Part shown: positions 25,327-47,270 of the stretch, piece by piece | Layout: each line of letters starts with the position of its first letter | Numbering within the stretch: position 1 is the first letter of the stretch | Source: Paenibacillus hemerocallicola | GTDB lineage: Bacteria; Bacillota; Bacilli; Paenibacillales; NBRC-103111 | NCBI RefSeq assembly: GCF_006265175.1 | Contig: NZ_VDCQ01000069.1 | Coordinates: 1-52,884, forward strand | Reading direction: 5' to 3' | DNA length: 52,884 nt | Translations under genes and position numbers: made by a program | The notes under the pieces: model-generated | Databases searched by the model: none | What the model saw: only the letters and a program-made list of their open reading frames with translations | What the model was told of the DNA's origin: nothing

Positions 25327-25392
25327 GTCATCGAAGTATAACAAAATGTCATCAAATTTCACTGCTCGACTGAAAACGCTTTCTTATATAAT
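25327..25392 (+). promoter_or_regulatory. Promoter with GTCAT direct repeats, sensor operon
   Basis: GTCAT at 25327-25331 and 25348-25352 (21-bp period), then 34 bp, then TATAAT (25387-25392), with no recognisable -35. The same arrangement with identical spacings precedes the large carbohydrate operon (30968-31033). Two direct half-sites two helical turns apart fit a dimer of an AraC-type protein bound just upstream of RNA polymerase. Confidence 0.72.
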
Positions 25393-25461
25393 AAAAGAAA
25401 GAGCTAGCCAATGGATGGATGACGGATTCGATAAAGAGAGCAAAAGGGGCGTGGCGAAGCG

Positions 25462-27012
25462 ATGAACGAAAAATCGGACCCTTTAGTTGCCCCGAAGCCG
25501 CGCTTGTATGCGGCGATTGCGGCGGGATTGGGCGCCGCGGCCGTCGGTATAGCGTTATACGGTCTGTTGGGCGCGACGCCGGATGGGCCGAAGGCCCGAA
25601 ATGAGCTGGCGAACGGTGGCCGCGAGCCGATAACGGTCGTAGCGCTGGGCGCCTACTACAGCTTTCCCCCGGGCTACGACGAGAATCGCAATCCGTATCT
25701 CGATTATATCGAGGATAAAACCGGCCTCGACATTTCCATCAAGCTTCCGCTCCAGGAAGGGTATAACGAACAGCTGAACGTCATTATGGAGTCTTCGAAG
25801 CTGCCCGATCTGATCAGCACGACAAGCAACAGCTGGGTAGCCGATTACGTGAAGCGCAACGCCCTGCTCCCCCTGGACGACTACATCGACAAATACGGAA
25901 GCGACTTGAAGAAGAAAATACCGCAGGAGGCGTGGGATCTCGTCCGGTTCAACGGCAAAATTTATGCGGTGCCGAGCCTGAATTCGGTCAGGGGCAACGA
26001 AATCATGTACGCGCGCAAAGATTGGCTCGACCGGCTCGGGATGGCGCCGCCCGTAACGTTGGACGATTATGCGGAGGTCATGAGGAGATTTGCCGAGGAC
26101 GATCCGGACGGCAACGGCAAGAACGATACGGTCGGGCTGCTGATCGGCAGCGGCTTGGTCCGCACGGCTCCTTTCTTCGGGGCGTTCGGCACGCAGACGA
26201 ACGGTTGGTACGAGCGCGAAGGAAAGCTCGTCTACGCGGGCGTGCTGCCGGAAACGAAGGAAGCGCTGCGCTATTTGGCCGGGCTGTACAAGAACAAATG
26301 GATCGATCCCGAATTCCCGATCAACAAGCTGATCTCGCTGGAGGAGAAAATCGTCGCCGGCAAGGCCGGCCTGTTCTCGGCCGTCTGGTACGACACCCGG
26401 GGGCCGATCGAAGCGAACCGCAAGGCGGATCCGCGGGCGGAATGGATTCCGCTCGACTATCCGAGCGGCCCTGACGGATTGCGGGGCGTAGCCGACAACG
26501 CGATCGCCCGCATGTTCAACGTCGTACCCGCCACGAGCAAGCATCCGGAGGCCGCCATCCGGCTGCTCAATTTTATCGCGGGAGACGGGTACCGTACGCT
26601 CAACCTCGGGTTCGAGAATGAGGTATGGACGCGCAGCGGGGGGCGGATGGTGACGAATTTCGAGGAGCACGACAGACAAAGCTACCGGGGCATATATGGC
26701 GCCTTGGCCGACGCGGGCGATCCGGAGGTCGACCGGGAAAGGCTCGATTCGCTTGGCGTCCATTTTCGGTTGTACGAAAATTTGCAGCGCATTTCGCGAA
26801 ACCTCATTCCGAATCGGTTTACCGGCCCCCCCACGCCGGTCATGACGACTTACGGGGCAAAGCTGTATGCGGTCCAGGAGAGCCTATTCACCAAAATCGT
26901 CGCCGGGGTGGAGCCGATCGAGGCGTTCGACCGGTTTGCGGAACGGTGGTACAAGGACGGGGGCAAGGAGATGACGACCGAGGCGAATGCCTGGTTTTCG
27001 CGGTACCGGTAA
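25462..27012 (+). CDS. Extracellular solute-binding protein with membrane anchor (LplA/LipO-like)
   Basis: 516 aa. Family-1 ABC solute-binding protein of the LplA type: ENRNPYLDYIEDKTGLDISI, ESSKLPDLISTTSNSW, the Asp/Asn-rich calcium-type loop DDPDGNGKNDTVG, GLYKNKWIDPEFPINK. Instead of a lipobox it has an uncleaved-looking transmembrane segment (about residues 13-35, no Cys). It begins the operon with the histidine kinase and response regulator and no permease follows, so it may act as a ligand-presenting sensor partner of the kinase rather than in transport. Kinase start lies 52 bp downstream. ATG 25462 has a weak AAGGGG-type SD. Confidence 0.88.
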   Translation: MNEKSDPLVAPKPRLYAAIAAGLGAAAVGIALYGLLGATPDGPKARNELANGGREPITVVALGAYYSFPPGYDENRNPYLDYIEDKTGLDISIKLPLQEGYNEQLNVIMESSKLPDLISTTSNSWVADYVKRNALLPLDDYIDKYGSDLKKKIPQEAWDLVRFNGKIYAVPSLNSVRGNEIMYARKDWLDRLGMAPPVTLDDYAEVMRRFAEDDPDGNGKNDTVGLLIGSGLVRTAPFFGAFGTQTNGWYEREGKLVYAGVLPETKEALRYLAGLYKNKWIDPEFPINKLISLEEKIVAGKAGLFSAVWYDTRGPIEANRKADPRAEWIPLDYPSGPDGLRGVADNAIARMFNVVPATSKHPEAAIRLLNFIAGDGYRTLNLGFENEVWTRSGGRMVTNFEEHDRQSYRGIYGALADAGDPEVDRERLDSLGVHFRLYENLQRISRNLIPNRFTGPPTPVMTTYGAKLYAVQESLFTKIVAGVEPIEAFDRFAERWYKDGGKEMTTEANAWFSRYR

Positions 27013-27063
27013 CGCTATTTAGCGGCAGCTTGAGCATGGAATCGGGGAAAGGCTGGAGAACGC

Positions 27064-28914
27064 ATGAAACGATTATGGAGATTCGTACACGACGCCTTTA
27101 CCCGTTATATCCAAGTACGGCTCACGGTCCACTTCCTTCTTATCCTCGTCCCGCTCGTGGCGGTCAGCCTGTTCGCCAACATGCGCTCCCATCAAATTTT
27201 GGAGGCCAAGACGAGCGACAGGACCAGAAGTCTGCTCCAGTCGGCTGTCGAGTATATCGATTTGACGATGCGCAACATGGAGGAAATATCCAACCTGCTC
27301 ACCCGCAACCAGGCGGTCAACGGCTGGCTGTCGGAGGCGGGATCCGAGCTGTCCGTCCAATCGGTCGTCCATTTCGGGGAAATTATCGGAGAGCTGTCCG
27401 ATATCGTGGCGCTTAACAATATGTTGTACCAGGTCTCCGTGCTGCATGCTCCGACGGATACGCTGCTGTCTTCCCGCTTCGGGGGCATCCGTCTGAAGGA
27501 CGCTTCCCTCGAGCCGTGGTACAGGAAGGCGGCGGAGCTGAACGGCTTCAGTTACTTGCACATTCCCGACGAGAACGGATACCCGCTGCGCGGAGAGTAC
27601 GCGTTCAACAAGGAAAGCGTCTACTTGATTCGCGGCATGAACGCGAACAACCGATCGTTTTCGCCCAATTTCATTATTCTCGGCATCAAAAAAAATTCGC
27701 TGCTGCAGCTGATCGCCTCGTCGCTCCCCTCCGCGGACGCGCAGGCGTATTTGTACGATCACGAGGGCCGGCTGGTGGTCGGCACCGATCCGACACGGGC
27801 TCCTTCCAGATTGAGCGAGTGGAGCGACGACGGCGCGAAGACGGTCCGGGTGTCTTGGCCGGAGCGGGATTCGTCCATGCTTGCGGTCAAGGTCCGGTCG
27901 CCGCAAACCCATTGGTCGCTCGTCATGCTGCAGCCGGAGGCGGAACTGTACGAGGAGAACCGGCAGCTGCAGCTGTTCACGTATACGATCATCGCGATCA
28001 GCATCGTGCTGGCGTTCTGGATTTCCTGGATGGTGTACGGCGGAATCGCCGCTCCGCTCCGAAGCCTTTCGTTCGGGATGAAGCAAATCCGGCTCGGCAA
28101 TTTGAACGTGACGCTCGATAACGGCAGAAAGGACGAACTCGGCTATGTGACGGAGTCGTTCAATCAGATGGCCCAGGATCAGCGAAGCCTGATTCGCGAT
28201 TATTACGAGCAGCAGCTGCGCGCGTCCAAAGCCGAGCTGAAATTTTTGCAATCGCAGATCAACCCGCACTTTTTGTACAATACGCTCGATTCGATTTACT
28301 GGACGGCGCAGGAATACGAAGCGGAGGAGATCGGGGACATGGTGTACAATTTGTCGAAGTTTTTCCGGCTGAGCCTGCAAAAAGGGCAGGAAACGGCAAC
28401 AGTTAAGGAAACGATCGAGCATTTGAGCTATTACGTACGGGTCCAGGAGCTGCGGTTCCAGCATCATTTCGCGGTGGTGTATGATGTGGACGATGCGGTC
28501 AAGGAGGCCGGCGTACTCCGCCTTCTGCTCCAGCCGCTGGTCGAGAATGCGATCCTGCATGGACTGGAGAAGGCGGCCTCCGGCGGTTTGCTGACCATTT
28601 CCGCCAAGGCGGAAGGGAAGTTTCTGGCTCTCGGAGTCGCCGACAACGGCGTCGGCATGTCGGGGGATCGGCTCGACTATATACGCCGCGAGCTCGGCGC
28701 GACTATGGCGGCTGACAACCGGGTGTTGTCCCCGTTCGATCCGAATAAATCGAAAGATTTGTTCGGCTTGCGCAATGTCGTCGCCCGGGCGAAAATCGTA
28801 TACGGCGATGAGGCGTCGTTTCGGATCGACAGCGAGCCGGGGGCGGGGACCCGGGTGAAGCTGCTGCTGCCGATGGAAGCGTGCCAATCGGTTCAAGGGG
28901 GAGAAACGGCATGA
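27064..28914 (+). CDS. Sensor histidine kinase, YesM type
   Basis: 616 aa. Two transmembrane helices (about 20-40 and 300-325) enclose an extracellular Cache-like sensor domain of about 260 residues. A HAMP domain (about 326-378) and a His_kinase/HATPase_c module follow. The phosphoacceptor is His402 in QINPHFLYNTLDSIYW; the N-box is LLQPLVENAILHGLE; G-boxes are GVADNGVGMS and GLRNVV. This is the YesM/LytS-like subclass. It phosphorylates the following response regulator, whose ATG overlaps its stop by 4 bp (ATGA). The ligand is presumably a sugar or oligosaccharide, possibly delivered by the preceding binding protein. Confidence 0.94.
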   Translation: MKRLWRFVHDAFTRYIQVRLTVHFLLILVPLVAVSLFANMRSHQILEAKTSDRTRSLLQSAVEYIDLTMRNMEEISNLLTRNQAVNGWLSEAGSELSVQSVVHFGEIIGELSDIVALNNMLYQVSVLHAPTDTLLSSRFGGIRLKDASLEPWYRKAAELNGFSYLHIPDENGYPLRGEYAFNKESVYLIRGMNANNRSFSPNFIILGIKKNSLLQLIASSLPSADAQAYLYDHEGRLVVGTDPTRAPSRLSEWSDDGAKTVRVSWPERDSSMLAVKVRSPQTHWSLVMLQPEAELYEENRQLQLFTYTIIAISIVLAFWISWMVYGGIAAPLRSLSFGMKQIRLGNLNVTLDNGRKDELGYVTESFNQMAQDQRSLIRDYYEQQLRASKAELKFLQSQINPHFLYNTLDSIYWTAQEYEAEEIGDMVYNLSKFFRLSLQKGQETATVKETIEHLSYYVRVQELRFQHHFAVVYDVDDAVKEAGVLRLLLQPLVENAILHGLEKAASGGLLTISAKAEGKFLALGVADNGVGMSGDRLDYIRRELGATMAADNRVLSPFDPNKSKDLFGLRNVVARAKIVYGDEASFRIDSEPGAGTRVKLLLPMEACQSVQGGETA

Positions 28915-30542
28915 AGCTGATGATCGTCGAGGACGAAGCGAAGCTGCGCAACAGTTTGGTTACCCATATACCGTGGGAGGAGAACGGCTTCGAGATAATC
29001 GGTACCGCATCGAACGGAATCGAAGCTCTGCGTCTGATGGAGACGAAAATGCCGGACATCGCCATCGTCGACATCCAGATGCCTGACATGGACGGTCTGG
29101 AGCTGGCGAGACGGGTGCGGGACGGCGGACTCGGACTGAAAATTATCATTTTGAGCGGCCTTGACAATTTCGAATACGCGCAGCGGGCGATGGAATACGG
29201 AGTCGTCCAATATTTGCTCAAGCCGGCGGGAAAGCTGGAAATTATGGAAGCGGTCCGGGTGGCGGCCGGTCAGCTGCGACGCATGCTGGACGAGAAGCAC
29301 GGCCGCGAAGCGCTGTTGCGGAAATGGGAGGAGCATTTGCCCCGATTGCGGGAGCTGTACTGGCAAAATTGCTTGTCCGGCAAATACGCTTCCTGGGAAA
29401 TCGATCGGAAGGGCGACGAGGTCCAGCTCGATCTTCGCGGCTCGGACCAATACGCCTTGGCGGTAATCGATATCGATCCGCTGTTGGAGGGCGAAGAGCG
29501 TTTTTTGCAGCAGGACGCGCCGCTTCTCCGCTTTTCCGTGGAATGCATCGCGGGCGAATACTTTCACGGGATGCCCTGCCATCTGTTTCCCGATGCGAAA
29601 GGGGCGACGGTCGTCGTCTTCGCCGGCTCGTCAGGCGAACCGCCGGACGAATTCCTGCTTCGTATTCATCTGCAGCTTGTCAAAGTGCTGACGAATGTCA
29701 AGGAATGCCTCAAGGTTACGGCCAGTGCCGGAATCAGCGGCTGCGCCGGCTCGGTGCAGCCCGTGCAGCGACTGTACCGGGAAGCGACAAGCGCGTTGAA
29801 CGAACGCGCGGCGCTCGGGCCGAACATCGCCATTCCGTTCCGCGAGCGTCGAGACGATGAGGAGGAAGCCGGCAGTACGGCGGAGAGGCAGACCGCCTCC
29901 CGCAAAGAGCTCGAATCGGCGCTCGAAACCGGCGACTTCGAGCGGGCGGGCGCCGCGCTGGACACATGGTGGGAAGAGCGGATGGAGCACGCCGGGTCCG
30001 CGGAAGAAATCCGCGAGCAATTGCTGGTCGTCTGCAGCCTGTTCGTCCGAACGGCGCACCAGCACGATTGGCCGCTCAAGCAGCTGGCGGGCGACGATTA
30101 CGTCTATTTTCACGACCTGCCGCGGCTCGCGGAGAAATCGCAAATTCGCCAGTGGCTCGGCCGCATCGTCCGTTGCTTTGCCGGGTACGCGGCCAGCTGT
30201 CGAAAGTCGGGCGGACATCACACGATCAAGACGGTGCTGGCGCTGATCGAGTCGGAAATCGACAAGGAGCTGAACCTGTACGACGTCGCCGACCGGATGT
30301 ACGTCAATTCCTCCTACTTGAGCCGATTGTTCAAGCAGGAGACCGGCAAGACGTTCTCGGCCTACGTGCTGGAGCGCAAGATGGAGCATGCGAAATCGGC
30401 GCTGCTGCGCGGCGTCAAAGTATACGATGCGGCGAGCATGACCGGCTATGGGCATGTCAGCTATTTTACGAAGGTGTTTCGCAAATATTGGGGCGTGTCT
30501 CCCGGCGAGATCAAGCATAATTTCGGGACGCAGCGGGCGTAG
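28911..30542 (+). CDS. Response regulator, YesN type (receiver + AraC HTH)
   Basis: 543 aa. The receiver domain has the acidic pair in VEDEAK, phosphoacceptor Asp54 (DIAIVDIQMPDMDGL) and Lys of YLLKPA. A ~280-residue middle region of unknown fold links to the C-terminal AraC-type double HTH (LNLYDVADRMYVNSSYLSRL, FKQETGKTFSAYVLERKMEH, VSYFTKVFRKYWGVSPGEIK). The start is ATG 28911, coupled to the kinase gene. A terminator follows. AraC-type regulators bind direct repeats about 21 bp apart; exactly such GTCAT repeats are present upstream of this operon and of the next one. Confidence 0.95.
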   Translation: MKLMIVEDEAKLRNSLVTHIPWEENGFEIIGTASNGIEALRLMETKMPDIAIVDIQMPDMDGLELARRVRDGGLGLKIIILSGLDNFEYAQRAMEYGVVQYLLKPAGKLEIMEAVRVAAGQLRRMLDEKHGREALLRKWEEHLPRLRELYWQNCLSGKYASWEIDRKGDEVQLDLRGSDQYALAVIDIDPLLEGEERFLQQDAPLLRFSVECIAGEYFHGMPCHLFPDAKGATVVVFAGSSGEPPDEFLLRIHLQLVKVLTNVKECLKVTASAGISGCAGSVQPVQRLYREATSALNERAALGPNIAIPFRERRDDEEEAGSTAERQTASRKELESALETGDFERAGAALDTWWEERMEHAGSAEEIREQLLVVCSLFVRTAHQHDWPLKQLAGDDYVYFHDLPRLAEKSQIRQWLGRIVRCFAGYAASCRKSGGHHTIKTVLALIESEIDKELNLYDVADRMYVNSSYLSRLFKQETGKTFSAYVLERKMEHAKSALLRGVKVYDAASMTGYGHVSYFTKVFRKYWGVSPGEIKHNFGTQRA

Positions 30543-30616
30543 GAAGGAATAACAGACCGGAAACAAAGAATAAAAAATGTATAAAAACGGCCGCATCCCC
30601 GCTCGCGGCGCACGTT

Positions 30617-30648
30617 CCCGTCCGGCTGCCGCCGACGGGCTTTTTTTT
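30617..30648 (+). terminator. Terminator of the sensor operon
   Basis: GC-rich stem built around CCCGTC/GACGGG with inner CGGC/GCCG, followed by eight T residues. Confidence 0.85.
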
Positions 30649-30715
30649 GCCTTAGCATCACATCCGTCACGAGCCCGATGGGCGAAGCGCCTTCATCCCC
30701 TTCGGAAGCAACGGA

Positions 30716-30903
30716 ATAGCGGAGTGAGCTTCCGCTACTTACCCGTAACGAGACATCGGCAGCAAAACAAAGGAACAGTGTTCCGTTATTTTGCCGTTTT
30801 CGTCCGACTTCACTCCTGAAAGGTCGAAATAACGGAGCTCCGTTTCGCTAAATTCGGAATCAAGTCAGAAGCTATGACTTTAACGGAGCCAAGTTCCGCT
30901 ATG
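30716..30903. repeat. Cluster of about four GGAA..TTCC hairpin repeats
   Basis: Modules such as ATAGCGGAGTGAGCTTCCGC (30716), AAAGGAACAGTGTTCCGTTA, ATAACGGAGCTCCGTTTCGC and TAACGGAGCCAAGTTCCGCT. Same family as at 10823-11010 and within the MITE copies. They lie between the terminator and the next promoter; no gene here. Confidence 0.8.
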
Positions 30904-30967
30904 TTCTCAAAGGATTGTTTCGCGCGAGAAAAGGATGCTAATTTGCCGTCACAGTTTTTCGCCGCTG

Positions 30968-31033
30968 GTCATGAAAGCTTAATAAAAGGTCATGGTTGTT
31001 GTCTAGGAACCGTTCCGGCCCCCGGCCTATAAT
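30968..31033 (+). promoter_or_regulatory. Promoter with GTCAT direct repeats, carbohydrate operon
   Basis: GTCAT at 30968-30972 and 30989-30993 (21-bp period), 34 bp, then TATAAT at 31028-31033. No -35. Spacings are identical to those at 25327-25392. A perfect 11-bp palindrome GGAACCGTTCC (31006-31016) lies where the -35 would be and may bind a second regulator. Confidence 0.72.
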
Positions 31034-31097: not shown

Positions 31098-31928
31098 ATG
31101 GAACTGTCGCTGAGCATGTACAGCATGCACCGGACGGTTAGGGAGAAAGGGTGGAGCGCGGCCGACTGGCTGCGGTTTTGCGGAGCGGAAGGGTGGAACA
31201 AGGTGGAACTGCTCGCCCATTTTTGGAAGGACGCCGCGGCCGAGCTCGACGAGACGGCGGAAACGGCGAAAGCTTGCGGCATCGAAGTGGTCAGCTATGC
31301 GGTATCGAACAACCTGGTCAGTCCTGATCCGCGGGAACGGGAGGCGGGACTGCGCAAAATTACCGACGACATTCCTTTGGCGCAGAAGCTCGGCACGAAT
31401 GTAATCCGCGTCTTCTCGGGCAACTGGATCGACGGGATCGAGTACCGGGACGCGCTGGAGTGGGTTGTCGACGGGTTGAAGGAAGCGGCGGAGCGGGCCG
31501 AGGCGGCGGGAGTTACGCTCTGTCTGGAAAATCACGGCAAGCTTGCCGGACGCGGCGAGCAAGTGAAGGAAATCATCGACCGCGTCGATTCTCCCTCCTT
31601 GCGCTCCACGTTCGACACCGGCAACTTCCTGCTCGTCGACGAGCATCCGCTCGAAGCGGCCAAGACGCTGCTACCTTATGTCGGCCACGTGCACTTCAAA
31701 GATTTCAAGGAGCAGCCGGGCGGGCGCTACAAATCGTTATCGGGCCGGACATACGAAGGGGTCCCGGCGGGGGAAGGCGATACCGATCTTCCGCAGACGC
31801 TGCGGCTGCTGGCGGATGCCGGCTACCGGGGGAGACTCGTGCTCGAATACGAAGGGCTCGGCAGCGACGTCGAGGGCATTCGCCAAAGCTATCGCAATTT
31901 CGAGCGAATGACTGCGGCCTATGCGTGA
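31098..31928 (+). CDS. Sugar phosphate isomerase/epimerase (xylose-isomerase-like TIM barrel)
   Basis: 276 aa, AP endonuclease family 2/xylose-isomerase-like barrel. Probable divalent-metal ligands are Glu144 (LCLENHG), Asp173 (STFDTGNF), His199 (GHVHFKDF) and Glu250 (LVLEYEG). It likely interconverts a sugar or its phosphate/keto form as part of the pathway that starts this operon. ATG 31098 is preferred over GTG 31089, with AAAGGGG upstream. It is the first gene of a ~18-kb operon, 65 bp downstream of the -10 element. Confidence 0.9.
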   Translation: MELSLSMYSMHRTVREKGWSAADWLRFCGAEGWNKVELLAHFWKDAAAELDETAETAKACGIEVVSYAVSNNLVSPDPREREAGLRKITDDIPLAQKLGTNVIRVFSGNWIDGIEYRDALEWVVDGLKEAAERAEAAGVTLCLENHGKLAGRGEQVKEIIDRVDSPSLRSTFDTGNFLLVDEHPLEAAKTLLPYVGHVHFKDFKEQPGGRYKSLSGRTYEGVPAGEGDTDLPQTLRLLADAGYRGRLVLEYEGLGSDVEGIRQSYRNFERMTAAYA

Positions 31929-31940
31929 AGGAGGATGGCG

Positions 31941-33548
31941 ATGAAGCACAAGGAGCTGCAAGCCGATGTGGCGATTATCGGCGGCGGAACCGGGGGCTGC
32001 GCGGCGGCGCTTGCGGCGGCCCGGCTCGGCAAAACGGTCGTCATGACCGAGGAGACGGATTGGATCGGCGGTCAATTGACGAGCCAGGCAGTGCCGCCGG
32101 ATGAGCATCCGTGGATCGAGTCGTTCGGCTGCACGCGGTCGTACCGTCGGTTCCGCGAGACGGTCCGGTCATATTACCGCCGGAACTTCCCGTTAACGCC
32201 GGAAGCGTTCGGATCGGCCGCGCTCAACCCGGGAGGGGGCGGCGTCAGCCGGCTCTGCCACGAACCCCGGGCGGCGCTTGCGGCGCTGCACGAGATGATG
32301 GCGCCGTACGTACACGCCGGCAAGGTGCGCATCCTGCACCGGCACGTTCCGGTTCGGGCGGAGGTCGCCGGCGACGAGGTGAAAGCGGTAACCGTCCGTT
32401 CGCTCGAATCGGAGGAGCTTGTCGACATCGCGGCATCGTTTTTTCTGGACGCCACCGAATGCGGCGACCTGCTGCCGCTGGCAGGCGTCGAATACGTCGC
32501 CGGCGCGGAATCTCGGCGGTCGACGGGCGAGCCGCACGCTCCCGAAGCAGCTCGGCCCGCCGACATGCAAGGGTTTACGTACTGCTTCGCGATGGATTAC
32601 CGCGAAGGCGAGAACCATACGATCGGGCGTCCGCGGGACTACGATTTTTGGCGGTCGTATCGGCCGGACTTTTGGCCCGGCCCGCTGCTCGGCTGGACCG
32701 GCAGCAATCCGATTACGCTGGCGCCCCGCACGTACGGGCTGTTTCCGGGCGACGGCGGCGCGTCGCTGTGGCTGTACCGGCGCATCGCCGCGAAGGAGCA
32801 TTTTGCCGCCGGGACGTATGACAGCGATATTACGCTCGTCAATTGGCCGCAAAACGATTACTGGCTCGGTCCGATCATCGATGTGCCGGAGGAGGAACGC
32901 GCAGCTCATCTGGAGCGCGCGAAGCAGCTGAGCCTGTCGCTGCTGTACTGGATGCAGACGGAGGCGCCGCGTCAGGACGGCAAAGCCGGCTATCCCGGCT
33001 TGCGGCTGAGGCCCGATGTGGTCGGCACCGGGGACGGACTCGCCAAAGCGCCGTATATTCGCGAATCGCGCCGCATCCGGGCGGAATTCACCGTGGTCGA
33101 GCAGCATTTGTCGAAGGCGTGCCGGGAGGAGGAAGGGGCGAAGACATCCTCGCCAGCATCCGGAATCCGGGCGGAAGCGTACCCCGATTCCATCGGTATC
33201 GGCTGCTACCGGATCGACCTTCATCCGAGCACCGGCGGACGGAACTATATCGACATTTCCAGCCTGCCCTTCCAGATTCCGCTCGGCAGCCTGATTCCGG
33301 TACGTATGGACAATGTGCTGCCGGCATGCAAAAACATCGGCACGACGCATATTACGAACGGCTGCTACCGTCTCCATCCGGTCGAATGGAACATCGGCGA
33401 AGCGGCGGGCGCGCTGGCGGCTTATTGTCTCGCGCGCGGGCTGAAGCCGAGGGAGGTGCGCGGCAGCGCCGAAGTGCTGGGCGATTTCCAGAAGGCGCTG
33501 GCCGCGATGGGAGTCGAGCTTGCTTGGCCTTCCGTTCACGCGGTATAA
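31941..33548 (+). CDS. FAD-dependent oxidoreductase (FAD_oxidored family)
   Basis: 535 aa. Rossmann dinucleotide-binding motif at the N-terminus (VAIIGGGTGGCAAALAAARL), a TEETDWIGGQLTSQAVPPDE segment typical of the PF12831 family, LDATECGDLLPLAGVEY in the middle, and the C-terminal IGTTHITNGCYRLHPVEWNI with GEAAGALAAYCLARG. Substrate unknown; family members sit in carbohydrate operons and are presumed to oxidise sugar derivatives. ATG 31941 has GAAGGAGG at ideal distance; ATG 31935 is too close to the SD. The gap to the isomerase gene is 12 bp. Confidence 0.9.
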   Translation: MKHKELQADVAIIGGGTGGCAAALAAARLGKTVVMTEETDWIGGQLTSQAVPPDEHPWIESFGCTRSYRRFRETVRSYYRRNFPLTPEAFGSAALNPGGGGVSRLCHEPRAALAALHEMMAPYVHAGKVRILHRHVPVRAEVAGDEVKAVTVRSLESEELVDIAASFFLDATECGDLLPLAGVEYVAGAESRRSTGEPHAPEAARPADMQGFTYCFAMDYREGENHTIGRPRDYDFWRSYRPDFWPGPLLGWTGSNPITLAPRTYGLFPGDGGASLWLYRRIAAKEHFAAGTYDSDITLVNWPQNDYWLGPIIDVPEEERAAHLERAKQLSLSLLYWMQTEAPRQDGKAGYPGLRLRPDVVGTGDGLAKAPYIRESRRIRAEFTVVEQHLSKACREEEGAKTSSPASGIRAEAYPDSIGIGCYRIDLHPSTGGRNYIDISSLPFQIPLGSLIPVRMDNVLPACKNIGTTHITNGCYRLHPVEWNIGEAAGALAAYCLARGLKPREVRGSAEVLGDFQKALAAMGVELAWPSVHAV

Positions 33549-33632
33549 GGACAACGGGTGAGAGACAGGGGCTTTTGCGACGCAATAAATGTAAATTTAT
33601 TGATCATATGAGATTTAAAGGGAGTGGTTCGC

Positions 33633-34952
33633 ATGAAGCGGAAGGCCATGAAAGGGACGACGTTCGCCGTCGTCACGGTTTGTCTGGCCGCCATCGTCGG
33701 CTGCTCGTCAGGCGGCAAGCCGGCCGAATCGGCCGGTACGGAGCCGGCGAAGCCGAAGGAAAAGGTCGAAATCAATTTCTGGTACAGCTGGCGCGGGGCG
33801 GAGGGCGAGGCGATGGAAAAAGTGATCGCCGATTTCAATGCGGGCCAGGACCGCATCGTCGTGAAAGGAACGCTCGAGACGGACCAGAAGAAGCAGCTGA
33901 CGGCCATTACCGGAGGCAGTCCGCCCGACGTAGCCAACAATTTCGGCTACAACAGCGCCGCATGGGGCGTCCAAGGGGCGATGACGCCGCTCGACCCGTT
34001 CATGCAGAAGAGCGGAATGAAGGCCTCCGATTTCGTCCCGGCGGCGATTCAACAGACACAGTATAAGGGTACGACCTATGCGCTGCCGCTGGCGATGCAT
34101 ATCCGCATGCTGTTCTACAATAAGGACATTCTCGCGCAGGCCGGCTACGACAAGCCGCCGGAAACGATCCAGCAGCTCGAGGACTATTACGACAAGCTCA
34201 ACGTCGTCGAACCGAGCGGCGAAATCAAGCGTCTCGCGATCAACCCGAATCTGGACATTTACCATTATGCGTACATGCTCGGCGGCGGGTTCTACGATTT
34301 CGCCAAGCAGGAAATTTCGCCCCAGTCGCCCGGCTTCATTAAAGCGCTTGCTTTCATGAACGGCCTGTATCAGAAAGTCGGCGGCGCGGAGAAGCTGAAT
34401 GCCTTCTACAAAACGTTCGGGCAAAGCGGCAAGCCCGACGACCCGTTCTTCGTCGGCAAATACGCGATGGTATCCGCCGGGGAGTGGTACGGCACGATGA
34501 TCAAGAACGCGGCTCCGGCGGGCTTCCGGTACGGCATCGCGCCGATGCCGTACGACGCCGAGACGCCGGGCAAGAAGGGCAGCGCCGTCGTCAACGCGAG
34601 CACCCTGTACATTCCGAAGGGCGCCAAGCATCCGGACGAAGCGTGGGAGTTTCTCAATTGGTTCATGAAGCCGCAAAATATGGCCAAATTCGATGCGGCG
34701 ATCGGCAACCTGCCGACCACTCCGAAGGCGATGGACGAAGCGGTGTTCAAGGACGTGCCGGGCTTCAAGGAATTTTTCGAAGCGTCCAAACATGCCAACG
34801 TCGTGACGTTCCCGTCCATTCCGTTTACGGAGCAGTATCAGCAGGCGATCGTGCAGGCGACGAGCGAGGTGTTCGGCGGCAAATCGAGTCCGGAGGTCGC
34901 CTCCAAGACGATTGCCGACAAAATGAAGCCGTTGGTGGAGCAATACAAGTAA
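33633..34952 (+). CDS. Extracellular sugar-binding lipoprotein (family 1)
   Basis: 439 aa. Lipoprotein signal with lipobox AIVGC (Cys24), then the mature family-1 sugar-binding protein: VEINFWYSWRGAEGEAMEKV, GGSPPDVANNFGYNSAAWGV, TYALPLAMHIRMLFYNKDIL, EAWEFLNWFMKPQNMAKFDA. It captures a carbohydrate for one of the two permease pairs in the operon. ATG 33633 follows AAAGGGA; GTG 33624 is unlikely. An AT-rich inverted repeat (AATAAAT/ATTTATT, 33584-33601) lies in the 84-bp gap upstream and may be a processing or stabilising stem. Confidence 0.93.
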   Translation: MKRKAMKGTTFAVVTVCLAAIVGCSSGGKPAESAGTEPAKPKEKVEINFWYSWRGAEGEAMEKVIADFNAGQDRIVVKGTLETDQKKQLTAITGGSPPDVANNFGYNSAAWGVQGAMTPLDPFMQKSGMKASDFVPAAIQQTQYKGTTYALPLAMHIRMLFYNKDILAQAGYDKPPETIQQLEDYYDKLNVVEPSGEIKRLAINPNLDIYHYAYMLGGGFYDFAKQEISPQSPGFIKALAFMNGLYQKVGGAEKLNAFYKTFGQSGKPDDPFFVGKYAMVSAGEWYGTMIKNAAPAGFRYGIAPMPYDAETPGKKGSAVVNASTLYIPKGAKHPDEAWEFLNWFMKPQNMAKFDAAIGNLPTTPKAMDEAVFKDVPGFKEFFEASKHANVVTFPSIPFTEQYQQAIVQATSEVFGGKSSPEVASKTIADKMKPLVEQYK

Positions 34953-34979
34953 ACCGCCGTGCAAGGAGGGGAATCGATT

Positions 34980-37967
34980 ATGGCGCTGCACCTGAAGCGG
35001 CGGAAAGCGGCCATCGCCGTATGGCTGGCGGCGTGTCTGCTGGCCGGGGAGGCCGTGGCGCCTGCGGCCCGAGGGAGCGGAGAGACGCTCGCCGAGAAGC
35101 ACAGAAGCGCGAATACGCTCAAGCCGATCGCCTACGCATCGTATACGGAGCAGCAGCTGCCCGCTTATGACGACGCGATCGCCAAGCTTATGGCCGAAGG
35201 GAAGCGGGATACGGCCGGGCTGCGCCTCTCGCTGCCGGCCTCCGCTTACAGCGGCTACGGCGGCTCGGCCTCCGGGACGGACGCAGCGGCAGCGGCAGCG
35301 CCGCAGCTACGAACGGGAATCGGCGACAAACGGGAAGAAACGCTGCTGTGGACGGAGAAGACCGACTGGATCGAATGGACGTTCGACGTGCCGGAGTCCG
35401 GCTTTTACGAGCTGGAGCTGACGTATTACCCGGTCGAAGGAAGCAGAACCGCGATCGAGAGGAGCGTTTCTCTGGACGGCGCGTTTCCGTTCAACGAAGC
35501 GCAGCGATTGACGATGCCGCGGCTTTGGGGCGACCAGGGGACGGTTACGGTCAACAATCAGGGGGACGACGTCCGGCCGAAGCAGTCCGAAGTTCCGCGC
35601 TGGGAAACCGCCCGGCTGACGGACGGCGAAGGGAAATACGCGGAGCCGCTGCGCTTCTACGCGGAGCGGGGCAAGCGCACGCTCCGCATGGGCCGCCTCC
35701 GCGAGCCGGTCGCGCTCGCCGCCGTCGCCCTCGTATCGCCCGAGCCGGTCCCCGCTTACGCCGAGCTGAAGAAGCGGTACGAGGCGAACGGCTTGGTACC
35801 GGCGAAGGCCGAGCCCGTCAAGGTGCAGGCGGAACAAACGGCATACAAAACCGATCCGTCGCTCCGCATGGAAACGAACTCCGATCCCCGCGTCGAGCCG
35901 AAGGCGGACGGATACCAGCGGCTGAATACGATGGGCGGCTGGAGATGGCGCAAGGGCGGACAGCAAATCGTCTGGACGTTCGAGGTTCCGGAGACCGGCT
36001 TGTACCGGATCGGCTTGAAGACGGGACAATGGTGGGGGGACGGGTTGCCCGTCTACCGCCGGATCGAGATCGACGGAACCGTGCCGTTCCGGGAGCTGCA
36101 GGAATACAAGTTCCCCTATGGCCGGGACTGGCGGCTGGAGACGCTCGGCGACGGGAGCGGAGAGTACGAATTCGCTTTGTCCAAAGGCACGCATACGATC
36201 CGGATGACCGTCCAAGTCGGCCCTTACGGGGAAATCGTCGACTCGCTTAACGGTACGATCCGCGGCATCGCCGATTTGCTCCGGAGCATCCAGATGGTAA
36301 CCGGCTCCACGCCGGACCCGAATTACCGCTACGAGCTGGAGAAGCGGATTCCGGGCTTGCTGGGCGACGTGAACAAGATAGGCGACGAATTGGAAGGGCA
36401 AATGGAGAAGCTTCGCGCCCTTACCGGACGTTCCCCCGCCATCGTGCACAGCCTTGCCGGAGTCCGGGACCAGTTCCGAAGCATGGCCGCGAATCCGGAT
36501 CGCATCCCGGGACAGCTCGAGGACTTGGCGGCAAGCCAGACGAAGCTGGGCAGCTGGCTGCTCGGGCTGGGCGATTCCCCGCTTGCGCTCGATTATTTCT
36601 GGATCGCGCCGGCTGGGGCCGAGAAGCCGGTTGTCCGTTCCAACGTATGGCAGCGGACCGCGGTCATGTTCAAAAACTTTTGGCGCTCGTTTACGAAAAA
36701 TTACGATCAAATCGGCAATACGCCGGACGGCTCGCAGACGTCGATCGACGTATGGGTCGGCAACGGCCGGGAATGGGCCCAGCTGGTCAAGGAACTGGCG
36801 GACGAGAGCTTCACGCCGCAAAGCGGCATCGCGGTCAACGTCAATACGATCCCGGCCGGCCAGCTCGGCGTCGGCCACGTCAACACGCTTCTGCTCGCGC
36901 TCAGCTCGGGCGAGGCGCCGGATGCGGCCATCGGGGTGGACGGCACGCTGCCGGCCGAATTCGCCTTCCGCGATGCGGTCGTCAACCTTAACCGGTTCGA
37001 AGATTACCGGGAGGCGGCCTCGTGGTTTTTGCCCGGAGCGCTTATCCCGTTCCGCTATAACGGCGGTGACTATGCCTTGCCGGAGACGCAGGATTTCAAC
37101 GTGCTGTTTTATCGCAAAGACTTGCTTGCGGAGCTCGGCCTCGGCATCCCCGAGACGTGGGACGATCTGCTCTCGATGCTGCCGGCGCTTCAACGAAGCG
37201 GCATGGACGCCTATGTGCCGTCCACGATCGACCCGTTTCTGTACCAGCAGGGCGGAAGCTTCTACAACGCCGACGGCAGCGAATCCGGGCTGTCGACGCC
37301 GGAAGCTTACCAGGCGTTCAAAAAATGGACCGATCTGTACACGAACTACGGCGTTCCGATCCAGGCCGACTTCTTCAGCCGGATGCGCGCCGACAAAATG
37401 CCGATCGGGCTGGCCGGCTACCAAATGTACGTGCAGCTGTCGACGGCGGCTCCCGAGCTTGCCGGACGTTGGGCGATCGCGCCGGCGCCGGGGACGAGAC
37501 GGGCGGACGGCACGATCGACCGAACCTCGGGAGGAGGGCTGAAGGCGTCGCTCATCTTCAAGCAATCGAAGCGGCAGGCGGAATCGTGGGCATTTCTGAA
37601 ATGGTGGATGAGCCGGGAGACGCAGGCGCAATTCGGCCGCGAGCTGGAGTCGCTGCTCGGCGTCGAGGCGCGGTGGAATACGGCCAACGTTGCGGCGTTC
37701 CGCGAGCTGCCGTGGCGCAAGGAGGATTTGGCCGCCTTCGAGGAGCAGTGGAAATGGTTCCGCGAGCAGCCGGTCGTGCTGGGAGGTTATTTTACCGGAC
37801 GGCATCTGGGCAACGCCTGGAACCGCGTCGTCCTCTCCGGTCAAAATCCGCGCGAATCGCTCGAGGAAGCGGTGAAGGAAATCGACAAGGAGCTGCGGCT
37901 GAAGCGGCAAGAATATGCGGTCGAGCGCCCGTCCGGGGAAAAAGGCGGGAAGAGGGAGGGGGATTGA
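34980..37967 (+). CDS. Giant solute-binding protein with N-terminal carbohydrate-binding-like domains
   Basis: 995 aa, over twice the normal solute-binding protein size. A signal peptide ends near residue 30 (no lipobox). Two related beta-sandwich-like domains follow, at about 115-230 (DWIEWTFDVPESGFYELELT) and 320-420 (QIVWTFEVPETGLYRIGLKT), then a helical region (about 435-540). A family-1 solute-binding domain occupies about 553-970 (NVWQRTAVMFKNFWRSFTKN, TPQSGIAVNVNTIPAGQLGV, YALPETQDFNVLFYRKDLLA, SWAFLKWWMSRETQAQFGRE). The fusion suggests it docks on a polymer or large glycan while handing sugar to the importer. The next permease begins immediately after its stop. Confidence 0.85.
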   Translation: MALHLKRRKAAIAVWLAACLLAGEAVAPAARGSGETLAEKHRSANTLKPIAYASYTEQQLPAYDDAIAKLMAEGKRDTAGLRLSLPASAYSGYGGSASGTDAAAAAAPQLRTGIGDKREETLLWTEKTDWIEWTFDVPESGFYELELTYYPVEGSRTAIERSVSLDGAFPFNEAQRLTMPRLWGDQGTVTVNNQGDDVRPKQSEVPRWETARLTDGEGKYAEPLRFYAERGKRTLRMGRLREPVALAAVALVSPEPVPAYAELKKRYEANGLVPAKAEPVKVQAEQTAYKTDPSLRMETNSDPRVEPKADGYQRLNTMGGWRWRKGGQQIVWTFEVPETGLYRIGLKTGQWWGDGLPVYRRIEIDGTVPFRELQEYKFPYGRDWRLETLGDGSGEYEFALSKGTHTIRMTVQVGPYGEIVDSLNGTIRGIADLLRSIQMVTGSTPDPNYRYELEKRIPGLLGDVNKIGDELEGQMEKLRALTGRSPAIVHSLAGVRDQFRSMAANPDRIPGQLEDLAASQTKLGSWLLGLGDSPLALDYFWIAPAGAEKPVVRSNVWQRTAVMFKNFWRSFTKNYDQIGNTPDGSQTSIDVWVGNGREWAQLVKELADESFTPQSGIAVNVNTIPAGQLGVGHVNTLLLALSSGEAPDAAIGVDGTLPAEFAFRDAVVNLNRFEDYREAASWFLPGALIPFRYNGGDYALPETQDFNVLFYRKDLLAELGLGIPETWDDLLSMLPALQRSGMDAYVPSTIDPFLYQQGGSFYNADGSESGLSTPEAYQAFKKWTDLYTNYGVPIQADFFSRMRADKMPIGLAGYQMYVQLSTAAPELAGRWAIAPAPGTRRADGTIDRTSGGGLKASLIFKQSKRQAESWAFLKWWMSRETQAQFGRELESLLGVEARWNTANVAAFRELPWRKEDLAAFEEQWKWFREQPVVLGGYFTGRHLGNAWNRVVLSGQNPRESLEEAVKEIDKELRLKRQEYAVERPSGEKGGKREGD

Positions 37968-38921
37968 ATGGAAAGCAGAGCCGCAACCGTCATGCAAGCC
38001 GCGGCGCCGACGCCGATTCGCGCGAAACGGAGCCGCTTCGCCGCCCATATGCGGGCGCGCGGGCTGCAATATGCGATGCTCGCCCCCTTCGTGCTGCTGT
38101 TCGCGGTGTTCACGATCGTGCCGGTGTTTTGGTCGATCGTGCTGAGCTTCACGTCGTACAACATGCTGCAGACTCCCGAATGGAGCGGGATATCCAATTA
38201 CCGCAAGCTGTTTCTCGAGGACGACATCTTCCTGACGGCGATCCGCAACACGTTCGCCTTCGCCCTCGTAACCGGGCCGCTCAGTTATTTCATCTCGTTT
38301 CTGTTCGCCTGGATTATTAACAACCTGAAATTCAGCAACGTATTCGCGCTAGGCTTCTATGCGCCTTCGATCACGAGCTCGGTCGCCTTGGCCGTCGTCT
38401 GGATGTACATCTTCTCCGGCGACCGGTACGGGCTGCTCAATTCGCTGCTGCTGGAGCTCGGACTGGAGCATCAGCCGGTTCTCTGGCTGCAGCACCCGGA
38501 CACGATGCTGAAGGTCGTCATGTTCGTCTCGCTATGGATGAGCATGGGTTCCGGCTTCCTCGTCTTTCTCGCGGGCTTGCGCAACGTGCCGGGGGAGCTG
38601 TACGAAGCGGGCGCGATCGACGGCATACGCGGCAAGTTCCAGGAGCTGTGGCTGCTGACGCTGCCGCTCATGAAGCCTCAGCTGCTGTTCGGGGCGGTCA
38701 ACGCGATCGTCGCTTCGTTCGCCGTGTTCGATATCGCCAAAGTGCTCGTCGGCATGCCGAGCCCGAACTATGCGGCGCATACGATCGTCGCGCATTTATA
38801 CGATTACGCGTTCATCCGGTTCGAGCTGGGCTACGCCTCCGCCGTGGCGGTGTTTCTGTTCCTCGTCACCCTCGTGCTCGGACGCGTCTGCATGCGGCTG
38901 TTCTCGTCGAAGGACATGTGA
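37968..38921 (+). CDS. Sugar ABC transporter permease 1A (MalF-like)
   Basis: 317 aa, six helices, UgpA/MalF-type permease. The EAA coupling loop reads EAGAIDGIRGKFQELWLLTLPLMKP. It starts directly after the stop of the giant binding protein. With the next gene it forms the first heterodimeric pore. No ATPase gene is present, so a shared MsmX-type ATPase elsewhere must energise it. Confidence 0.93.
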   Translation: MESRAATVMQAAAPTPIRAKRSRFAAHMRARGLQYAMLAPFVLLFAVFTIVPVFWSIVLSFTSYNMLQTPEWSGISNYRKLFLEDDIFLTAIRNTFAFALVTGPLSYFISFLFAWIINNLKFSNVFALGFYAPSITSSVALAVVWMYIFSGDRYGLLNSLLLELGLEHQPVLWLQHPDTMLKVVMFVSLWMSMGSGFLVFLAGLRNVPGELYEAGAIDGIRGKFQELWLLTLPLMKPQLLFGAVNAIVASFAVFDIAKVLVGMPSPNYAAHTIVAHLYDYAFIRFELGYASAVAVFLFLVTLVLGRVCMRLFSSKDM

Positions 38922-38989
38922 GGGCGGTGTGCGACGGAATTGTCTGCAAAGAGATGAAGCGGTAAGGAACGGAGGGAGGTGGTACGGAA

Positions 38990-39832
38990 ATGAAAACGAA
39001 ACGCATCGTATCGAAAATATCGCTGCACGCCGTCATGGCCGCGCTGGTCGCCTTGACGGCCGCGCCGATCGTCTATGTCGTGTCGACGGCCTTCAAGCCG
39101 CTCGACGAGCTGTTTCTTTACCCGCCGCGCTTCTTCGTCATGAAGCCGACGATGAAAAATTTCAGCGATCTGCTGATCGCCACCGACAGCTTGCTCGTCC
39201 CGTTCACGCGCTATTTGTTCAACAGTGTATTCATTACGGTCGTCGCCGTGACGGGAACCGTCGTCATTTGCGCGATGGGCGCCTTCATCGTATCGCGCTA
39301 CAAGCTGCCGGGCTCGGGCTTTTTGTTCGCGGTTATCGTGGCCGCCCTCATGTTCTCGCCGCAGGTGACGCAAATTCCGACTTATTTCGTCATCTCCGGC
39401 CTGAATATGGTCAACACGTATTGGGCGCTCATCCTGCCGAAGCTTGCGGTGCCGTACAGCTTCTTCCTGATGAAGCAGTTCATGGACCAGCTGCCCGAGC
39501 CGATGCTCGAAGCCGCCAGGTCGGACGGGGCGAACGAGTGGACGACGTTCTGGCTCGTCGTCATGCCGGTCGTCAAGCCGGCCTGGATGACCGTCGTCAT
39601 CTTCAGCTTCATCGCCGACTGGAACGACTACTTCTCGCCGCTCATCTATACGACGAGCGAAACGATGAAGACGCTGCCGCTCGCTCTGGCCGGCATTTCC
39701 AACGGAGCGGTGGGCCGCATGGGAGCGGCAGCGGCAGGCGCATTCGTCTCGATCGTCCCGACGCTCGTCCTGTTCATCATTCTGCAGCGGCAGGTGATGG
39801 ATACGATGGCGCACTCGGGTATCAAGTCATAG
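38990..39832 (+). CDS. Sugar ABC transporter permease 1B (MalG-like)
   Basis: 280 aa, six helices. The EAA loop is EAARSDGANEWTTFWLVVMPVVKPA. The N-terminal IVYVVSTAFKPLDELFLYPP is typical of UgpE/MalG-type subunits. A strong SD (GGAGGGAGGT) is 9 nt before ATG 38990. Pairs with the preceding permease. The C-terminal ILQRQVMDTMAHSGIKS is the usual MalG-type end. Confidence 0.93.
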   Translation: MKTKRIVSKISLHAVMAALVALTAAPIVYVVSTAFKPLDELFLYPPRFFVMKPTMKNFSDLLIATDSLLVPFTRYLFNSVFITVVAVTGTVVICAMGAFIVSRYKLPGSGFLFAVIVAALMFSPQVTQIPTYFVISGLNMVNTYWALILPKLAVPYSFFLMKQFMDQLPEPMLEAARSDGANEWTTFWLVVMPVVKPAWMTVVIFSFIADWNDYFSPLIYTTSETMKTLPLALAGISNGAVGRMGAAAAGAFVSIVPTLVLFIILQRQVMDTMAHSGIKS

Positions 39833-39845
39833 GACGGGAATCCTG

Positions 39846-41906
39846 ATGAATACATCGCACCGTAATGCAACGAAACGCTTAACCGCCGCGCTTCTTCTGC
39901 TCGCGCTGCTACTGCCGGCCGTTTTCCCGGCATCCGCCGACGCCGCTCCCCCCGCGGGATACGTGATCGACGACGGAGGCAACGCGCTGCCGACGCCGCT
40001 CGGCTATTCCGTAGAGCGGGTAATCGTCCCGAGCGGAGGCAACGCGCTCAAAAACCCGGCCGACCTGGTCATCGACGGCAGCGACCGGCTGTACGTCGCC
40101 GATACCGACCATAACCGAATCGTCCGACTGGACCGATGGGGCAACGCGCTGCGAATGTTCGGCACGAAGGAAGACAGCCTGGGGCTGAATGCCCCGAAGG
40201 GACTGTTCGTCGAGTCCGACGGCCATCTGTACGTCGCCGATACGAACAACGCCCGCATCGTGCACGTATCGCCGGACGGGCGGCTGATCGAGACGTTCTC
40301 GGCGCCGCAATCCGACCTGCTCGATCCCGACTTTCCTTACCGGCCCGACAAGCTCGCGATCGACGGCAAAGGCAACCTGTACGTGCAGAGCGGCAACGAT
40401 TACCACGGGCTGATCGTCATGGACGCTTATGGCAAATTCCAAGGGTATATCGCCCCGAACCAATTGAAATTCGATTTGAAGGACTGGATATTACGCGTCT
40501 TCGCCACGAAGGAGCAGCGCGACGCCTCCGGCAAAAAAGTGCCGCCGAATCATCGCGGAGTCGCGATTGATCCTAAGGAAGGACGTCTGTATACGGTGGT
40601 AGGCAATACGTCGTCGGAGGAAATCAAACGATTCAACCTGCTCGGCGTCAACACGTATCCGGCGAAGACGTACGGCGAATACAGCCAAACGAACGGAGTG
40701 CGGACGTCGGCCGCGCTGGCCGATATCGTCGTCGCCCCGAACGGCATTATGAGCGTCGTCGATTCCCGGCAAAAGAAAGTGTACCAGTACGACCAGGAGG
40801 GCAACATGCTGATGGCGTTCGGGGGAAGCGGGCAGCAAAGCGGCTATTTCCAGGAACCGGTCGCCATCGCGCTCGACTCCGAAGGACTGCTGTACGTGCT
40901 CGACCGCGCGCTCGGGAACATTCAGGTGTTCCGGCCGAATGCGTTCGCGACGCTCGTGCAGAAGGCGACCGCCCTGTATCACGACGGCCGCTATGAGGAA
41001 GCGGTCGGGCCGTGGAACGCGGCGCTGGCCATGAACGCGAATTACGTCCTGGCGCATCGGGGCGTGGGCAAGGCGCTGCTGAAGCGCGAGAAGTGGACCG
41101 AGGCGATGGCGGAGCTGAAGCTCGGCGAGGATAAGACGAATTATTCCAAGGCGATGAAAGGCTGGCGGCATCAGCTGCTGCGCGAGCGGTTCGGCTGGAT
41201 TGCCGCAGCGGCAGCGCTGCTGCTGGCCGCCGCCTATTACGCCGCCGTAGCGCTGAGAAGCTATACGAACCGGCTCGCCGCATCGCCCGGAGGCGGCACC
41301 CCGCTCTCGCAAGCCGCGCTGCTCGTATTCCAGCCGAGGGAAGCGTTCGCGCGCATCCAGACGGCGCCGTCGCTTGCCGCGGCGCTGCTGCTGTTCGCGG
41401 CGGTCATAGGCGCCCGCTTTTTCGAAATTTATTTCACCGGCTTTCATTTTGCCGGGACGCGTCCGGAATTCGCCAGTCTTGTGCTGGAGACGGCCAAAAT
41501 GGCAGTGCCGCTCGCCGCCGGCGTCGTCGCCTTGTGGGCGGCGACAACCGTGCTCGACGGGGAATCGACGTTCGGACAGACGGTGGCGGCATGCGCCTAC
41601 TCGCTTCTCCCTTACTTGGTCGGGCGCATACTGGTGACGATAGCAAGCAACGTTTTGACGCTGGAGGAGCAAGGGCTGCTGCATGCGATCGAACTGCTCA
41701 TGCTCGTATGGCTCTGCGGCGTCTGCTTCGTCCAGATCATGACGCTGAACGACTATACGGTTGTCAAAACGGTCGTCGTCGCGCTAGTCGCCGCTTTTAC
41801 GATGATGGTACTGATGGCGGCGGCCGTACTGTTCTACATGCTGCTCGACCATGTAGCCGGATTTGTCCGGGAGCTGTATGTGGAAATGTACGTAAGGAGC
41901 TCGTGA
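39846..41906 (+). CDS. NHL-repeat/TPR/Yip1 membrane protein
   Basis: 686 aa with three modules. A signal peptide (1-33) leads into an extracellular NHL beta-propeller (about 45-360; repeats such as PADLVIDGSDRLYVADTDHN, PKGLFVESDGHLYVADTNNA, PVAIALDSEGLLYVLDRALG). A TPR pair follows (about 375-445, YHDGRYEEAVGPWNAALAMN, LKREKWTEAMAELKLGEDKT), then a transmembrane helix (about 455-475) and a C-terminal Yip1-type domain of about five helices (500-680). The function is unknown. Between two permease sets it may be a surface scaffold or assembly factor for the uptake machine. It starts 13 bp after permease 1B. Confidence 0.85.
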   Translation: MNTSHRNATKRLTAALLLLALLLPAVFPASADAAPPAGYVIDDGGNALPTPLGYSVERVIVPSGGNALKNPADLVIDGSDRLYVADTDHNRIVRLDRWGNALRMFGTKEDSLGLNAPKGLFVESDGHLYVADTNNARIVHVSPDGRLIETFSAPQSDLLDPDFPYRPDKLAIDGKGNLYVQSGNDYHGLIVMDAYGKFQGYIAPNQLKFDLKDWILRVFATKEQRDASGKKVPPNHRGVAIDPKEGRLYTVVGNTSSEEIKRFNLLGVNTYPAKTYGEYSQTNGVRTSAALADIVVAPNGIMSVVDSRQKKVYQYDQEGNMLMAFGGSGQQSGYFQEPVAIALDSEGLLYVLDRALGNIQVFRPNAFATLVQKATALYHDGRYEEAVGPWNAALAMNANYVLAHRGVGKALLKREKWTEAMAELKLGEDKTNYSKAMKGWRHQLLRERFGWIAAAAALLLAAAYYAAVALRSYTNRLAASPGGGTPLSQAALLVFQPREAFARIQTAPSLAAALLLFAAVIGARFFEIYFTGFHFAGTRPEFASLVLETAKMAVPLAAGVVALWAATTVLDGESTFGQTVAACAYSLLPYLVGRILVTIASNVLTLEEQGLLHAIELLMLVWLCGVCFVQIMTLNDYTVVKTVVVALVAAFTMMVLMAAAVLFYMLLDHVAGFVRELYVEMYVRSS

Positions 41907-41949
41907 ACATGGCACGACATGTCGAAATACGGCAAGGAGGTGGAAGGGG

Positions 41950-45098: not shown

Positions 45099-45150
45099 CC
45101 GCGGAGGAGGCGGAGCGCGCTTGGCCCATCAAAGGGAGAGGAGGTGCCGC

Positions 45151-47252: not shown

Positions 47253-47270
47253 ACAAGGAGACGATTGAGG

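Follow-up and report, generated by a model that had tools for sequence, protein, structure and literature searches.

Genes and promoters of the locus

The window, by which we mean the whole stretch of 52,884 nucleotides of Paenibacillus hemerocallicola DNA that was analysed, carries a solute-binding protein (SBP), a His_kinase-family sensor and a receiver-AraC regulator that are encoded together, an order that is also found in the congener G001. A long run of genes for sugar uptake and catabolism lies downstream of them. The features are as follows (window positions):

25327..25343, + strand: upstream half-site of promoter 1, comprising box A (GTCAT) and, about 10 bp further, box B; sequence, alignment with 31 other sites, conserved in G001
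25348..25364, + strand: promoter 1, downstream half-site, 21 bp from the first; sequence, 32-site alignment, G001 conservation
25370..25384, + strand: cre-like (CcpA) box CTGAAAACGCTTTCT, between the operator and the -10 of promoter 1; one mismatch to WTGNAANCGNWNNCW, which we take to be the cre consensus
25387..25392, + strand: promoter 1, -10 TATAAT, gap of 34 to the second GTCAT; sequence
25462..27012, + strand: solute-binding protein, presumed sensor subunit; Pfam SBP_bac_1
27064..28914, + strand: YesM-type kinase (dCache, HAMP, His_kinase, HATPase); Pfam
28911..30542, + strand: YesN-type response regulator (receiver, GGDEF-like, AraC helix-turn-helices); Pfam, order-wide co-occurrence with the operator
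30968..30984, + strand: promoter 2, upstream half-site; sequence, 32-site alignment, G001 conservation
30989..31005, + strand: promoter 2, downstream half-site; sequence, 32-site alignment, G001 conservation
31028..31033, + strand: promoter 2, -10 TATAAT, gap of 34 to the second GTCAT; sequence
31098..49181, + strand: predicted target operon of 18 kb, all on this strand; open reading frames and Pfam

The regulator has two AraC helix-turn-helices according to Pfam (HTH_18 and HTH_AraC, 2 stretches), and the translations contain the phosphorylation motifs DIQMPD (receiver Asp) and NPHFLYN (kinase His). The first part of the predicted target operon encodes a TIM-barrel isomerase, an FAD oxidoreductase, two SBPs, two permeases and an NHL/Yip1 protein; the rest encodes a DUF5696 protein, two more permeases, a Gfo/Idh/MocA protein and an F5/8-type C protein. 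One protein of this operon (34959-37967, 1002 aa) has its SBP domain only in the C-terminal part (about 610-890), and its long N-terminal region gives a weak golvesin-C-like match below the cut-off. The start of the sensor-operon SBP (25462-25600) shows, by eye, a membrane-spanning-like stretch and no evident lipobox Cys, so the protein may remain anchored and form part of the sensor instead of working in transport.

The original prediction was that the two promoters share the architecture GTCAT-N16-GTCAT-N34-TATAAT, and this pattern is found perfectly at 25327-25392 and 30968-31033, where the sites start 135 bp and 130 bp ahead of the ATG of the SBP gene and that of the large operon's first gene, respectively. 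These are the only two exact occurrences in the whole genome (9,652,120 bases), and the reversed pattern has no match in the same 9.65 Mb; the frequency is thus not that of a random motif. When up to three mismatches are allowed, the window contains three matches against 0.17 expected, a number reached in none of 100 shuffles; the third, at 50230, has three mismatches. Without the -10 requirement, GTCAT-N16-GTCAT occurs 63 times in the genome, so the half-site pair alone is unspecific, whereas the pair together with its distance to TATAAT is specific, the -10 distance carrying much of the specificity. We inspected 12 of the 63 pairs (11 stretches, chosen by eye for spacer or context) and rejected such pairs as targets by themselves. 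The pair at C108:35578, which reads toward the end of a convergent gene, was discarded, as was the one at C122:46440, where a glycosidase-like gene follows but the TATAAT is 48 bp away. The pairs at C104:13533 and on C92, also among those inspected, turned out to be operators.

Conservation and architecture of the operator

The closest comparison comes from G001, whose regulator is 77% identical to that of the window and whose gene order is the same as far as it was fetched. Both sites are kept upstream of the orthologous operons, as gtcatcgaagtgcaacaagatgtcat-N33-TACAAT and gtcatgaaagctcaacaaaaggtcat-N33-TATAAT. Pairwise alignment with the window gives islands of identity over operator, spacer and -10, with diverged flanks, and there is a one-base indel in each spacer; since both G001 spacers are thereby 33, a spacer of exactly 34, as in the window, is not obligatory.

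A consensus drawn from 32 aligned sites reads GTCATnAAAGTACCAnAAAAAGTCATCGnnGTCCTCTA, then about 20 variable bases, then TAnAAT. In this alignment each half-site has two parts and extends beyond GTCAT, which is box A; box B, about 10 bp further on, is TACC in the first half-site and TGTC/TCCT in the second. The two half-sites form a direct repeat with a period of 21 bp, both in the window sites and in the alignment. Over the 101 distinct instances in the fetched loci, the gap from the second GTCAT to the -10 is 33 in 63 cases, 32 in 32, 34 in 5 and 31 in 1. The exact 34-bp spacer that had been proposed is consequently true of both window promoters and fails as a rule, with a mode of 33 and only 5 of 101 at 34, and we have rejected it as such. 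This also accounts for the behavior of the literal pattern in the genus: with at most one mismatch it matched in 2 of 5 genomes (an exact match lies at G002:C47) and missed true orthologs, because the spacer there is 33 and not 34. The other part of the proposal, that no -35 is visible, holds over all 101 instances. With the spacing to the -10 set at 16-18 bp, the best TTGACA match agrees on average at 2.72 of 6 positions against 2.55 in shuffled sequence, and there is no -35 signal above chance at these operator-promoters.

A transcription start is expected about 7 bases past the -10, which would place the centers of the half-sites near -45 and -66. At class II promoters AraC-type activators bind next to the polymerase, in place of a -35 element. 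The sites have direct half-sites about two turns apart, the downstream one at the -35 position, and no -35, and by analogy with the AraC/XylS family the geometry of the element is that of a class II activator site. AraC-type proteins can both activate and repress, and since the operator abuts the -35 position one might suppose that the regulator mainly represses, or that its unphosphorylated form represses and phosphorylation relieves this. However, the missing -35 in the 101 instances and the fixed upstream placement, 32-34 bp from the -10, suit activation better, and we consider repression very unlikely.

The cre-like box of promoter 1 is matched in the G001 ortholog by a box with no mismatch to the same presumed consensus. 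A cre differing from that consensus at one position or none is found between box B and the -10 in 7 of the 101 operator instances, compared with 0.2% in shuffled sequence. It is therefore likely, judging from such matches, that CcpA represses a subset of these promoters, that of the sensor operon included.

Two other elements around the promoters deserve mention. Near-palindromic intergenic repeat units (ATAACGGAnnnnnGTTnCGnTA) occur in the window at 10823-11008, 21784-21919, 24917-25101 and 30716-30902, in clusters with steps of about 51 and 62 bp (25 matches against 1.2 expected), and are possibly a miniature repeat element; two of the clusters lie just upstream of promoters 1 and 2. An RNA leader element was rejected, as Rfam at the gathering threshold gave no match over 24500-31500.

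Co-occurrence of operator and regulator

To follow the operator through other genomes we have employed a sequence-only covariance model built from the 32 sites, all of which come from one family and include both window and both G001 sites; the weight matrices were likewise trained on sites picked from that family. In-family counts are therefore partly circular, while the out-of-family counts, and the 20 foreign loci of GH31-AraC fusion genes discussed below, contain no training site. The family- and order-wide searches used the stricter filters of Infernal, with which weak sites may be missed.

Relatives of YesN-type regulators are numerous in the window's own genome, where a loose first look with this protein gave 484 candidates. 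The contig search for related loci kept 80, of which L076 and L077 were used. The covariance model gives 13 matches in this genome at E≤10 and 7 at E≤0.003. These seven are the two window sites, two on C136 and one each on C92, C118 and C104. They represent five loci, namely the window, those of the two paralogs nearest to the regulator (C118 and C136), a FAD-oxidoreductase/GH31-AraC locus (C104) and an SLH-glycosidase gene (C92). Among 22 own-genome matches at E≤1e-25, the C118 and C136 proteins are the only other full-length homologs above 29% identity (49% and 47%). The operator is thus present at 3 of 3 regulator loci of at least 47% identity and at 0 of 5 loci of full-length relatives of 26-29%. 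The latter have no site scoring >13 within the fetched 12-14 kb; the top score in the corresponding control, 705 kb of reversed or complemented sequence, was 10.6.

Across the order the association is strong. In a set of 296 genomes, counted by hand, the operator (E≤1e-3) is found in 80 of 94 that have a regulator relative at E≤1e-80 and in 1 of 202 that do not. The 14 relative-bearing genomes with no operator at this threshold include many whose relatives are more distant. Outside the training family the figures are 20 of 30 with a relative against 1 of 162 without (Fisher 9e-19, kinship being ignored). In 15 of these 20 genomes the operator is on the regulator's strand and begins 20-2134 bp beyond the 3' end of its gene, as promoter 2 does, and in the remaining five it is farther away or on another contig. 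Within the family, 59 of 64 regulator-bearing genomes and none of 39 others have it at E≤1e-3, although the two numbers come from sets of slightly different size (64 regulator-bearing among 104 genomes, 103 searched with the model) and G034, counted here as lacking the operator, was positive in the order-wide search. Weak matches, with E of 0.004-0.03 (E≤0.05 cut), came from six genomes of the family in which no regulator relative passed the cut-off.

It might be argued that the likeness of the two window promoters is due to chance or to a dispersed repeat and is not regulatory, considering how common the bare half-site pair is in the genome and that an unrelated palindromic repeat precedes both promoters. 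This is contradicted by the out-of-family co-occurrence with the regulator, by the islands conserved between diverged flanks, and by a control in which 506 kb gave no score >13, and we regard it as extremely improbable. Together with the conservation in G001, the order-wide co-occurrence instead supports the original view that the YesN-type regulator is tied both to its own operon and to the metabolic operon.

The DNA-binding module gives a finer picture. The C-terminal modules of 97 fetched regulators, GH31 fusions included, were compared with that of the window, after the duplicate loci L265 and L076 (three rows) and two rows with an open frame of ≤300 aa had been dropped from 102. An operator lies within 8 kb in 48 of 50 cases at ≥48% module identity, 2 of 8 at 44-48%, 6 of 16 at 40-44%, 7 of 15 at 36-40% and 0 of 8 below 36%, so that between 36 and 48% the link is loose (15 of 39). 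The recognition-helix residues (VNSSYLSRLFKQ; VSYFT.VFRKYWG) are nearly fixed in the ≥48% group and variable in the 34 rows without an operator. When operator presence is mapped on a tree of these 97 modules, it must have changed at least 15 times; outside the closest group the link between operator and regulator is therefore imperfect.

GH31-AraC fusion proteins

The genome of the window also encodes 11 proteins (open frames of 894-1036 aa) in which a GH31-like N-terminal part is joined to the same C-terminal AraC module:

L263:11779-14667, L266:9981-12884 and nine further own-genome loci: GH31-AraC fusions, linker and AraC module as in the window regulator

Two of them were scanned with Pfam (PF01055, PF21365, PF17137, HTH_18), and the remaining nine align over at least 712 residues with the barrel part of one of these two. 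GH31 enzymes carry catalytic signatures, among them a WxDMNE-like nucleophile motif, which is present in 0 of the 11 own-genome fusions. The acid/base WxG-D position is visible in six of them (by eye; in one also in the alignment), and in all six the Asp is replaced. Because of these two losses the fusions look like dead enzymes, at least as far as their GH31 parts can be judged from catalytic residues. Fusions matching at E≤1e-120 are found in 8 of 103 family genomes and in 4 of 5 in the genus; no recognisable paper on them was present in the literature searched.

Operator-like sites lie at 4 of the 11 own-genome fusion loci. At the 20 foreign fusion loci, the operator scores >13 in 10 and >16 in 8, with no score >13 in the 506 kb of control sequence. 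Among the foreign operators, closely spaced divergent pairs occur in L350 and L351, with two such pairs in L352; in L355, L361 and L362 the operators flank the fusion gene. Sites at fusion loci differ in detail from the others, for example in a CTTGCTTATnCC-like stretch. These observations suggest that one type of operator is read by two sensor architectures, receiver-AraC and GH31-AraC. Going further, there is perhaps an even chance that evolution has coupled one operator architecture and its DNA-binding module both to a phospho-receiver driven by an SBP and kinase and to a fused, apparently dead GH31 domain that would read intracellular sugar directly. If so, sugar signals from outside and inside the cell would converge on sister promoters, and partly perhaps on the same ones; that the operator is common to these fusions also makes one ask by what route a dead glycosidase could have turned into a sugar sensor.

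With two paralogs and 11 fusions in the same genome, and operator-like sites at own and foreign fusion loci, the window sites could be genuine operators whose main binder is another related module, either a GH31-AraC fusion or the C118 or C136 paralog, with cross-talk. Yet both sites and the operon are present in G001, a genome lacking any GH31-AraC match at E≤1e-120; the sites flank the regulator gene itself, a placement repeated in other families; and the fusion-locus sites are not identical in detail. A different main binder thus seems quite unlikely.

Proposed model of regulation

In view of this evidence, we give a probability of about 0.87 to the reading that both window sites are operator-promoters of the neighboring YesN-type regulator, through which it would activate its own operon and the 18-kb sugar operon. 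The earlier proposal is supported in substance and refined in three respects: a longer, bipartite half-site, a spacer with a mode of 33, and a cre-like box over promoter 1.

The sites, their conservation and their co-occurrence with the regulator clade are direct observations; the binding, its dependence on phosphorylation, activation as opposed to repression, the inducer and the function of the cre box are inferred. The SBP and the dCache kinase would sense an extracellular sugar, and the kinase would phosphorylate the regulator. Two regulator protomers would then occupy the two bipartite half-sites in head-to-tail orientation. The two helix-turn-helices of each AraC domain would enter box A and box B, which are about one helical turn from each other, and the second half-site is two turns (21 bp) from the first. 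Since the downstream half-site extends just to the point at which a -35 would start, the bound regulator is expected to replace the -35 contact and to bring the polymerase to the -10, as in class II activation. The regulator would in this way turn on both the SBP-kinase-regulator operon, a positive feedback, and the 18-kb uptake/catabolism operon, while CcpA would probably hold promoter 1 down through the overlapping cre.

Relationship to known systems

Judging by their layout and neighbors, the window sites probably belong to the AraC-type direct-repeat operators of sugar-sensing three-component systems. The classical example of such an operator is araI1-I2 of pBAD, where Escherichia coli AraC binds a direct repeat of two half-sites with a 21-bp period. 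Each half-site consists of two boxes separated by one turn, and the downstream half-site reaches the -35 region for class II activation; AraC itself binds arabinose and loops to araO2. The window sites share the period, the two-box half-sites and the class II placement, with predicted centers near those of araI2 and araI1. In contrast to AraC, the input is a receiver domain fed by an SBP and a kinase, and the letters of the half-sites differ. In the Bacillota, AraPST and XynDC of Geobacillus stearothermophilus combine, as here, a sugar-sensing kinase with an AraC-type response regulator.

Several described systems resemble that of the window more or less closely. CuaDSR of Ruminiclostridium cellulolyticum consists of an SBP, a kinase and a YesN/AraC-family regulator that induces sugar-uptake genes (PMC10384115); the regulator is of similar length, though sugar and genes differ, and the portion of that text examined gives neither an operator motif nor a direct repeat for CuaR. 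The XydS/XydR system of Clostridium cellulolyticum also has a receiver-AraC regulator, which binds upstream of a hemicellulase gene cluster; unlike our reading of the window, its promoters have a -35 and its own genes are not controlled, and the parts consulted give common features of two regions and no consensus site (PMC3572039). The pneumococcal YesM/YesN-type pair is like that of the window, and its YesN is positively autoregulated on overexpression, but the most strongly induced operon is one of oxidative stress and the sections seen report no clear repeat motif (PMC11034029). Two MEME motifs are given for MsmR1 of P. polymyxa (PMC9722767), and motifs for kinase-regulator pairs are predicted in PMC8579813, as far as excerpts of these papers go; the excerpts of PMC10766802, PMC1249566 and PMC4194401 contain no operator for a YesN-type regulator. 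A clear binding site for such a regulator was absent from the literature searched, which mostly excluded subscription papers. An operator defined by footprinting across an order would make regulons readable from sequence, and both mechanism and specificity directly testable with two short DNA fragments.

Genes behind the operators

The first genes behind the operators give some idea of what such regulons contain. Eighteen of them, from 15 fetched loci chosen among the sites found, were scanned with Pfam: they comprise six permeases, two each of SBPs, FAD oxidoreductases, TIM-barrel isomerases and SLH/GHL10 proteins, one Gfo/Idh protein, one YrpD-domain protein and two with no Pfam match. Fifteen of the 18 are of transport, sugar-enzyme or surface-glycosidase types. 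The operator precedes FAD oxidoreductase genes in L163, L168, L178, L263 and L268, and the second gene of the 18-kb window operon is also an FAD oxidoreductase. Once defined by footprinting, the site would also connect orphan enzymes to a sensor, the FAD oxidoreductase and the SLH glycosidase among them. In L262:3457-8352 (contig C92 of the window's genome) and L277:4477-9249 the genes encode S-layer-anchored GHL10/glucodextranase-B proteins with an operator and a cre in front. No regulator of YesN type adjoins either gene among the scanned neighbors, and these S-layer-anchored GHL10 proteins are possible orphan targets.
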